Origin: Streptomyces sp. NBC_00443
Lineage (GTDB): Bacteria > Actinomycetota > Actinomycetes > Streptomycetales > Streptomycetaceae
Assembly: GCF_036014175.1 (NCBI RefSeq)
Contig: NZ_CP107917.1
Coordinates: 2,914,001-2,978,000 of the forward strand
Direction: 5' to 3'
Length of the DNA: 64,000 nucleotides
The notes under the pieces were generated by a model. It saw only the letters and a program-made list of their open reading frames with translations. It searched no databases and was not told where the DNA came from. Positions 23,037-64,000 of the stretch are shown here, piece after piece; the stretch's first letter is position 1, and each line of letters opens with the position of its first letter. Made by a program: the position numbers and the translations under genes.

Positions 23037-23360
23037 TCACACCCGAGGCAGGGACTCCACCCCGATGCCGCCCTCGATCGCCAGGATCCGGTGCAGCCGG
23101 GTGGCCACCAGCAGGCGCTGCATCTGCGGCGGTACGCCGCGCAGCACCAGGCGCCGGCCGCAGCGGCCGGCCCGCCGGTGGGCCCCCATGATCACCCCGA
23201 GTCCGGTGGCGTCCCAGGAGTCCAGCTCGGACAGGTCGAGCACCAGATCGCCGACTCCGTCGTCGACGGCCGAGTGCAGGACCGTACGGGCGTCCGCCGC
23301 GCTGCGGACGTCGAGGACGCCCCCGACGACCAGTTCGGCGTGGTCGCCCCTGATGTGCAT
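23037..23360 (-). CDS. STAS-domain protein (anti-sigma factor antagonist-like)
   Basis: A 107-residue single STAS domain. It has the usual order: GVLDVRSA, LVLDLSELDSWDATGLGVIMGAH, then RRLVLRGVPPQMQRLL. In SpoIIAA-type proteins the phosphorylated residue is a Ser before GLGV; here the residue is Thr (DATGLGV), which may still be phosphorylated. It would bind a partner anti-sigma/kinase of the RsbW type. No partner kinase or sigma factor is adjacent. It is transcribed leftward, upstream of the NTPase gene and downstream of the hydroxybutyryl-CoA dehydrogenase, with 200-base spacers on both sides. Confidence 0.9.
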   Translation of the reverse strand: MHIRGDHAELVVGGVLDVRSAADARTVLHSAVDDGVGDLVLDLSELDSWDATGLGVIMGAHRRAGRCGRRLVLRGVPPQMQRLLVATRLHRILAIEGGIGVESLPRV

Positions 23361-62717: not shown

Positions 62718-63284
62718 TCAGGCCTCCCTGGCCGTCGGCAGCATGGCCCAGACCGTCTTGCCCGCCGGCTGGCGTCGCGTCCAGCCCCAGTGCTCGGACA
62801 GCGCGTCGATGATGCGCAGCCCCCGGCCGTGCTCGTCGAAGAGGTCGCCGGTGTGCGGGTAGACAGGGGGGTTGTCGCTCGGGTCGGCGACGGCACAGAC
62901 GAGGTGGGCCGGGCGCCGCAGGCTGAGCTTCAGCCAGATCTCGGCCTCGGGGCGCGAGGAGGCCACGTCGGCCGGCGCGGGCGATGCGGCGTGCAGCACG
63001 GCGTTGGCCAGCAGTTCGGTGACCACCATGAGGGCGTCGGCGCTGCAGTGGTCCAGTGCCCAGTCGTCGAGCGTGCGACGGACGAAGTCGCGGGCTCGGC
63101 CGCAGCCCTGTTCGGCACCGACCAGGCGCAGGGCGGCGGAACGAGGCGAGGTGCGCGGGGGCTCGGGGCTGGTGAGCCGACGGGGGCCCGAGGTGGCGCG
63201 GTGCGCTTCCGGCGGCGCCGTCAGCCCCGCGTGGGGCGCAGCTCTGCCGGGCAGTTGGAGCCCTTCGTACGCAGGTAAGGACAC
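62718..63284 (-). CDS. RsbW-like ATP-binding protein with TTA at codon 3
   Basis: A 188-residue HATPase_c (anti-sigma/serine kinase) domain protein. The N-terminal 50 residues are Pro/Arg-rich; the domain has the N box VVTELLANAVLHAAS and the lid segment DEHGRGLRIIDALSEHWGW. The G1 box is degenerate (VADPSDNPP). GTG 63284 has GGGAGA 5 bases upstream. Codon 3 (complement of 63276-63278) is TTA, so translation should need the bldA tRNA. It is divergent from DUF397 and HTH genes, the combination known from WhiJ/AbaA-type loci. Confidence 0.9.
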   Translation of the reverse strand: MSLPAYEGLQLPGRAAPHAGLTAPPEAHRATSGPRRLTSPEPPRTSPRSAALRLVGAEQGCGRARDFVRRTLDDWALDHCSADALMVVTELLANAVLHAASPAPADVASSRPEAEIWLKLSLRRPAHLVCAVADPSDNPPVYPHTGDLFDEHGRGLRIIDALSEHWGWTRRQPAGKTVWAMLPTAREA

Positions 63285-63370
63285 AACGTCTCCCTGATAC
63301 ACGGTCAGGACAGGGCGTCCGCACTGCCGTTGACGCCACGGACTATTATCCACGCCAACGGCGCCTCCGT

Positions 63371-63390
63371 GCAATTTCACGGGAAATTGC
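63371..63390. promoter_or_regulatory. AT-rich palindrome between the ATPase and DUF397 genes
   Basis: GCAATTTC (63371-63378) and GAAATTGC (63383-63390) form a perfect dyad around ACGG, with further pairing outside. It stands out in a region of over 70% GC and lies about 90 bases from both divergent start codons. It is the natural candidate operator for the adjacent HTH regulator. Confidence 0.65.
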
Positions 63391-63481
63391 GCGAAGGTGT
63401 CGACGCAGAGCACGTGGTGCGGTCCGGGCCCGGCGGGACGTCGGAGCGCGCGCGTGGCCGAACGTGAGCAAGGAGAGTGCA

Positions 63482-63712
63482 GTGCCAACAGCACAGAACG
63501 GCGTACGGGCAAGCTCGTTGGGCGTCCGCTGGATCAAGAGCCGGCACAGCAATGCCGAGGGCAACTGCGTCGAGGTGGCGAGCCTGGGCGACGGCAGCAT
63601 CGCGATGCGCAACTCCCGCGACCCCGAGGGGCCGGCCCTGGTGTACACGCCGGCCGAGATCACCGCGTTCCTGGCGGGCGCCAAGGAGGGAGAGTTCGAC
63701 CACCTCGCATGA
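63482..63712 (+). CDS. DUF397 domain protein
   Basis: A 76-residue single-domain protein with the family core WIKSRHSNAEGNCVEVASL, AMRNSRDPEGPALVYTPAEITAFL and GAKEGEFDHL. DUF397 proteins are encoded next to HTH (WhiJ/Scr1-like, DUF5753) regulators and appear to modulate them, possibly in an antitoxin-like pair. GTG 63482 has AAGGAG six bases upstream; GTG 63464 would add six residues. The HTH gene follows after 139 bases. Confidence 0.93.
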   Translation: MPTAQNGVRASSLGVRWIKSRHSNAEGNCVEVASLGDGSIAMRNSRDPEGPALVYTPAEITAFLAGAKEGEFDHLA

Positions 63713-63851
63713 CCTGAACGGAGGGCCGGGCAGGAAGCGAAACTCCGCTGGGAAGCGGAAGTTGAGCCTTCTAATTGCTGCGGTTCCGGCGGCAGGAGGC
63801 GGCGGGATGCGATAATGCGGTCTGTCGTATGCCGGTCTACGGGGAGTCAGG

Positions 63852-64000
63852 ATGTCCGCCGAGTCACCTCGCATCTCCCGCCTCGAGCCCTATCTGAGCC
63901 GGACCGAACCCGCGCCGACCCTGCTGAAAATGCTGGTCGGCGTCCAGCTGGCGGGTATCCGCGAGGACGCGGGCCTCTCCCAGGACCAGGCGGCGCGTGC
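63852..64000 (+). CDS. HTH (XRE/WhiJ-like) transcriptional regulator, cut by the window end
   Basis: Only the first 49 residues are present: MSAESPRISRLEPYLSRTEP, then TLLKMLVGVQLAGIREDAGLSQDQAAR, the start of an XRE helix-turn-helix. GGGGAG lies just upstream of the ATG. Position after DUF397 and the N-terminal sequence fit the WhiJ-like regulators with a C-terminal DUF5753 domain; that part lies beyond the window. Confidence 0.85.
   Translation, partial: MSAESPRISRLEPYLSRTEPAPTLLKMLVGVQLAGIREDAGLSQDQAAR

Follow-up and report, generated by a model that had tools for sequence, protein, structure and literature searches.

Proteins of the AbaA, BldB, and WhiJ families have been described for Streptomyces venezuelae and Streptomyces coelicolor (PMC10294661, PMC4255298), and the role of the modules that they form is a long-standing question in Streptomyces development. 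In abaA-bldB-whiJ clusters, such as the abaA6 cluster of S. venezuelae and the whiJ locus of S. coelicolor (SCO4542-4544), the three protein types are encoded adjacently, and each genome contains many paralogues. Loss of BldB strongly raises the abaA genes, overexpression of abaA6 blocks sporulation, and activation of the WhiJ9 target gene requires WhiJ9, which binds the adjacent DNA (PMC10294661). TTA codons are often found in AbaA-like genes, SCO1980 and SCO3423 among them (PMC4255298), and SCO1980 lies beside the gene for a WhiJ-like regulator, SCO1979. Loss of bldA does not silence every TTA-containing gene: several retain expression in the mutants, particularly when transcription is strong (PMC4932002). 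In the cited literature, few DNA targets of WhiJ proteins are known, and no partner of AbaA is known.

The window, a stretch of 64,000 nucleotides from Streptomyces sp. NBC_00443, was found to contain a member of this family of developmental modules at its end. ATPase, DUF397, and XRE-HTH/DUF5753 proteins were encoded side by side, as expected for an AbaA/BldB/WhiJ module. The AbaA-type ATPase gene, whose product has a predicted SpoIIAB/RsbW fold, occupied 62718..63284 on the minus strand (188 aa; Pfam HATPase_c_2 above the cut-off). The DUF397 (BldB-like) gene (63482..63712, plus strand; Pfam DUF397, 77 bits) had a GTG start and the ribosome-binding site AAGGAGAG, and was followed on the same strand by a gene for a WhiJ-type HTH_31/DUF5753 regulator (63852..64772, corresponding to L023:7852-8772), of which the first 149 bases (63852..64000) lay within the window. 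An earlier note on this DNA had assigned the same three genes, and both the reading frames and Pfam agreed with that assignment. Beyond the end of the window, a gene for a PF04672 S-adenosyl methyltransferase (L023:8836-9654, minus strand) was convergent with the WhiJ gene; it was conserved in nearly all relatives of the locus.

The layout differed from that of the described abaA-bldB-whiJ clusters in that the DUF397 gene preceded the WhiJ gene and diverged from the ATPase gene across a conserved 20-bp palindrome, and in that relatives of the window locus added the methyltransferase gene and a gene for an ARM/HEAT-like protein. The earlier note mentioned neither the palindrome nor these two additional genes. 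The locus also resembled SCO1979-SCO1980, since its WhiJ-type protein was related to the Sco1979 family and its ATPase gene likewise carried an early TTA. However, the WhiJ-type protein scored 297 bits against NCBIfam NF058600, under the cut-off of 350, so that it was not assigned as an equivalog of SCO1979, whereas another gene of the same genome, at 7084252, scored 469 bits and stood beside another TTA-bearing ATPase gene. This SCO1979-type locus (G000:C1:7083518-7085319; L061/L179) had its own intergenic palindrome, which differed from that of the window locus.

A PDB sequence search with the ATPase gave zero matches, and fold comparison was used instead. In the AF2 model, built with 23 relatives, residues 1-41 were predicted to be disordered (pLDDT <50) and the core was mostly confident from about residue 48, except for loops such as 147-153. 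SpoIIAB was the top PDB match of this model, as expected for a GHKL fold, and the best matches comprised SpoIIAB (1l0o, 1th8, and 1tid) and the RsbW domain of Rv1364c (Foldseek E value of 4e-6 and TM score of 0.73 by target length). The N box was retained, with E90 present in 100% and N94 in 98% of 61 ATPase sequences, and E90, N94, D134, G153, R154, and G155 were each kept in 98-100% of them. The protein thus shared with the SpoIIAB/RsbW anti-sigma kinases its predicted fold, the N-box residues E90 and N94, and a G2-box GRGL. In contrast to those kinases, the ATPase family was mostly without the G1 glycines of the DxGxG motif, and the window ATPase had a long, predicted disordered N terminus and no adjacent sigma or STAS gene that could be seen. 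The G1 box had already been read as degenerate in the earlier note, and this held across most of the family: the window ATPase contained DPSDNPP in place of DxGxG, and D134 was invariant while the glycines were missing in most of the relatives shown. The same note had named the STAS protein encoded at 23037-23360 as a candidate partner of the ATPase. That proposal was not supported, since the STAS domain was real (minus strand) but its gene was 40 kb away and nothing linked it to the module. Among the neighbours of the module that were examined, neither a sigma factor gene nor a STAS gene was found.

The ATPase gene opened with GTG TCC TTA CCT GCG TAC, the GTG start lying at 63284 and being preceded by AGGGAGA; the ribosome-binding site region (CAGGGAGA on the minus strand, 63289..63296) was kept in relatives. 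The reading frame thus placed a TTA leucine codon (63276..63278, minus strand) at the third position of the ATPase, in agreement with the earlier note. A start of translation downstream of the TTA, which that note had regarded as evidence against its proposal, was excluded by the sequence: zero in-frame ATG, GTG, or TTG codons occurred between codons 3 and 86, and codon 86, immediately ahead of the N box, already fell within the ATPase domain, so that the TTA must be read in any functional ATPase. The nearest upstream alternative start, GTG at 63299, would keep the TTA in frame. The gene therefore had an in-frame TTA that could not be bypassed, as expected for bldA-dependent genes. A tRNA-Leu gene with the anticodon TAA was identified in the genome as the only strong match among the tRNA matches listed, which confirmed the presence of a bldA-type tRNA gene. 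Because residues 1-41 were predicted to be disordered, a structural need for Leu3 is unlikely. The gene was similar to the bldA-controlled TTA gene adpA and to the TTA-bearing SCO3423 and SCO1980 in having a rare UUA codon in a regulatory gene, with the tRNA gene present, and differed from them in that the TTA was the third codon and was conserved in one branch and not in all streptomycetes; its bldA dependence is a prediction.

Two sets of relatives were compared. The first (L024-L039) was collected by the ATPase protein in named genomes, one of the patterns being MSLPAYEG with any leucine codon, and the second (L101-L175) by the palindrome in 394 Streptomyces genomes, so that codon 3 played no part in the choice of this second set; some strains occurred in both sets (e.g., L025 and L123), and the counts are accordingly not all independent. 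The ATPase frame was intact in 68 loci, and their third codon was TTA in 25, TCA in 35, TCG in 6, CTG in 1, and TTG in 1. One further locus, L139, also had TTA at codon 3, with a damaged ATPase frame. In the branch to which the window belongs, TTA was present at codon 3 in 20/20 fetched loci (16 distinct). This branch was recovered in a tree of the linked WhiJ proteins (19 rows, SH-aLRT 98, TTA in 19/19); L173 was left out of the tree because its WhiJ gene was broken into two matches, and was counted as the twentieth locus of the branch. Outside this branch, TTA at codon 3 was found in the branch of L032, L033, and L035, and singly in L037, L133, and L139. Parsimony on the WhiJ tree required at least five changes between TTA and not-TTA, each of which may be a gain or a loss.

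TTA was otherwise rare in the module. It made up 25 of the 27 leucine codons at codon 3 and 5 of the 1,252 leucine codons elsewhere in the ATPases; Fisher tests on the TTA counts ignored relatedness and served as a scale only. Across 90 loci, 0 of 4,262 leucine codons in the DUF397 and WhiJ genes were TTA, which bore out the statement of the earlier note that the divergent DUF397/HTH arm is free of TTA (0/90 loci). Some ATPase genes without TTA at codon 3 carried it elsewhere, at codon 17 (L102, L135, and L160), codon 8 (L105), codon 51 (L137), or codon 162 (L174). In addition, an early TTA was present in two further AbaA-type genes of this genome, at codon 5 in L042 (if the nearest ATG is the start) and at codon 10 or 7 in L061, and both adjoined genes for WhiJ proteins above the SCO1979-family cut-off. 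The TTA codons of L042, L061, and the ATPase relatives agreed with the published abundance of TTA in AbaA-like genes (PMC4255298). From these comparisons, the TTA at codon 3 is evolutionarily kept, and synthesis of the ATPase probably waits for the developmentally timed tRNA. A clean on/off switch by this codon is plausible, and the strict form of that claim is weakened by the known leakiness of TTA genes (PMC4932002).

The TTA was not the sole constrained feature of the gene start, as much of codons 1-8 of the ATPase was conserved at the DNA level and codons 3 to 7 were invariant in the window's branch. Across the 68 ATPases, codon 3 ended in A in 60, codon 4 was CCT in 55, and codon 5 was GCG in 58. 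Where codon 3 encoded serine, TCA was used in 35/41 cases, compared with 23/787 serines elsewhere in the ATPases, and TCA is one transition from TTA. Part of this conservation may have a cause at the nucleotide level, in DNA or RNA. Pairing of the AGGGA region with TCCTTACCT into a start-codon RNA hairpin appeared possible by eye and was rejected after folding of about 60 relatives, in which z-scores were scattered around zero. A search of the 394 genomes with a degenerate start-region pattern at 3 mismatches was swamped by chance matches, and the palindrome search was used for the counts.

An alternative raised by these observations is that constraint on the gene start produced the TTA as a side effect: a codon 3 ending in A and an unvarying CCT at codon 4 would serve translation initiation or a DNA site, the TTA would have arisen from TCA by one transition, and the effect of bldA would be small. 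The codon 3 and codon 4 frequencies and the bias toward TCA are what such a constraint would leave, and 29 of 70 conserved degenerate codons were invariant in the window's branch anyway, 4 of the 13 other leucine columns among them. Nevertheless, a constraint of this kind does not readily account for the near absence of TTA from the rest of the ATPases and from the neighbour genes, for its retention in all loci of the branch with no drift to TTG or CTA, or for its recurrence in other lineages and at other ATPase codons, and RNA structure in the start region was not above chance. We regard this explanation as rather unlikely.

The 20-bp palindrome between the divergent genes (GCAATTTC-ACGG-GAAATTGC, 63371..63390, no strand) is new in the present analysis. 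It was invariant in orthologues, being identical in 12 aligned sequences, and no second site appeared in the 9.45-Mb genome when up to 3 mismatches were allowed. At up to 1 mismatch it was found in 98 of the 394 Streptomyces genomes, where a reversed control pattern gave none; its variants were GCAATTTC-N4-GAAATTGC and GCAATTTC-N4-GCAATTGC. On the ATPase side, a predicted -10 element, GATAAT (63345..63350, minus strand), lay in the segment TGGATAATAG, which was invariant in 12 aligned relatives. The spacing from the palindrome to GATAAT was 20 nt in 60 of 66 measured loci and differed by a single nucleotide (19 or 21 nt) in six; a further 25 loci failed the filter and were left out of the measurement. 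A putative weak -35-like element, TTGCAC (63369..63374, minus strand), overlapped the palindrome at 18 nt from the -10. A consensus promoter scan of the intergenic region called nothing, the -35 being weak, and the -10 was assigned by its conservation. Most of the relatives measured also had a GTCAAC sequence (63329-63334 in the window, minus strand) 34-37 nt beyond the palindrome. The stretch from the palindrome to the DUF397 start was not conserved, and the promoter of the DUF397/WhiJ arm was not placed.

The palindrome is probably the operator of the WhiJ-type protein, as predicted from its conservation and position. Its centre lay at about -42 from the predicted transcription start of the ATPase gene (63338, deduced from the -10). 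Activation from a distance of about -42 is familiar from HTH proteins such as lambda cI. By this analogy, the location of the palindrome near -42, overlapping a weak -35, favours activation of the ATPase promoter by the WhiJ-type protein; repression is possible. The palindrome of the paralogous L061 locus, next to the SCO1979-type gene, was a different sequence, CGAAGATCCCGGTGGATCTTCG, of similar geometry (arms of 9 bp separated by 4 nt), suggesting that individual WhiJ proteins of this subfamily may each have a palindromic site of their own. WhiJ9 of S. venezuelae leaves its footprint on direct repeats, not on a palindrome (PMC10294661), and this would fit a palindrome that serves an unrelated global regulator in place of the WhiJ-type protein of the locus. 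More sites would be expected for a global regulator, and the palindrome occurred once in this genome. Nearly every occurrence examined was at this locus, and in L141, the single exception, it again lay beside a WhiJ/DUF397 pair. A global regulator is thus quite unlikely to be its ligand. L141 (G197:C1:4421693-4427693) contained an additional copy of the palindrome in its genome, beside paralogous methyltransferase, WhiJ, and DUF397 genes (58, 38, and 61% identity, respectively), and neither an ATPase gene nor an ARM/HEAT-like gene was detected there.

The usual gene order in relatives was methyltransferase, WhiJ, DUF397, palindrome, ATPase, and ARM/HEAT-like gene. The ARM/HEAT-like protein had about 160 residues and an all-helical, armadillo-like predicted structure (pLDDT 88); Pfam gave no match, and comparison with PDB folds gave weak armadillo-like matches only. 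In most relatives its gene followed that of the ATPase (e.g., L131:2108-2647 and L153:2035-2502 on the minus strand, and L031:6507-6974 on the plus strand), and in L038/L140 the ATPase and ARM/HEAT-like sequences were in one open frame of 386 codons. Of 91 loci, 52 had both the ATPase and ARM/HEAT-like sequence, 17 had the ARM/HEAT-like gene without a detectable ATPase, and 20 had the ATPase only, the remaining two being the paralogous L141 and L167, which is at a contig end. Five of the 20 ATPase-only loci and nine of the 17 ATPase-less loci were only about 3 kb long, so that absence was judged over about 1.4 kb in these; the longer loci agreed. The 20 ATPase-only loci were those of the window's branch (the 19 tree rows and L173), in which the ARM/HEAT-like gene was missing and TTA was at codon 3 in all. 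The palindrome and promoter remained in the 17 loci without a detectable ATPase gene. As the control region persists without it, outputs other than the ATPase are possible, and the output genes seem, from this distribution, to be exchangeable. In L105, L127, L129, L139, and L169, the ATPase was apparently decaying, shortened, or lost, and the palindrome, the -10, and the start region stayed.

The divergent arrangement bears on another explanation, in which the DUF397 and HTH proteins form a type II toxin-antitoxin system with the ATPase as an incidental neighbour. A toxin-antitoxin role has been proposed for XRE-DUF397 pairs, as cited in PMC10364602 and PMC7159879. However, when 14 DUF397 proteins were overexpressed in S. 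coelicolor, no clear toxicity was seen (PMC10364602), and in most relatives the ATPase was linked to the pair divergently through the conserved palindrome, which makes this explanation very improbable.

We propose that the locus is under two-layer control, in which a WhiJ/BldB-type control of the promoter through the palindrome is combined with a bldA gate on translation of an anti-sigma-like ATPase, and we assign this reading a probability of roughly 0.6. The WhiJ-type protein, modulated by the DUF397 protein, would bind the palindrome and set the transcription of the ATPase gene. The transcript would then be translated only past the UUA at codon 3, so that the ATPase would accumulate when tRNA-Leu(UAA), the bldA product, is available, and the DUF397 and WhiJ arm, which is without UUA, could act earlier. 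The ATPase would bind a partner protein in the fashion of SpoIIAB/RsbW and thereby hold or tune development. Two-layer control is supported by the published effects of BldB, WhiJ9, and abaA6, together with the conserved TTA, the tRNA gene, and the conserved palindrome. It is weakened by the finding that TTA genes are not always bldA-dependent (PMC4932002), by the A-ending third codon shared by TTA and TCA in 60/68 ATPases and the near-fixed codons 4 and 5, and by the use of direct repeats by WhiJ9, the failure to find a sigma or STAS gene among the neighbours examined, and the promoter kept in the 17 ATPase-less loci. More tentatively, and with the odds against it, one promoter with a fixed WhiJ-type operator might drive interchangeable outputs (the ATPase and the ARM/HEAT-like protein, singly or together), and in the branch left with the ATPase alone, the UUA at position 3 might have been fixed as a tRNA-based AND gate on the WhiJ/BldB transcriptional switch.

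TTA-bearing AbaA-like genes (PMC4255298) and this type of locus were already known; the conserved predicted operator, the apparently exchangeable outputs, and the complete conservation of TTA in the ATPase-only branch are new. With a predicted single-copy operator and an ATPase gene in which a single codon can be swapped, the locus and its conserved control site provide a clean test case for the WhiJ/BldB/AbaA modules. If the WhiJ operator and the bldA dependence are both true, the transcriptional control by WhiJ/BldB and the translational control by bldA would meet on one output gene.
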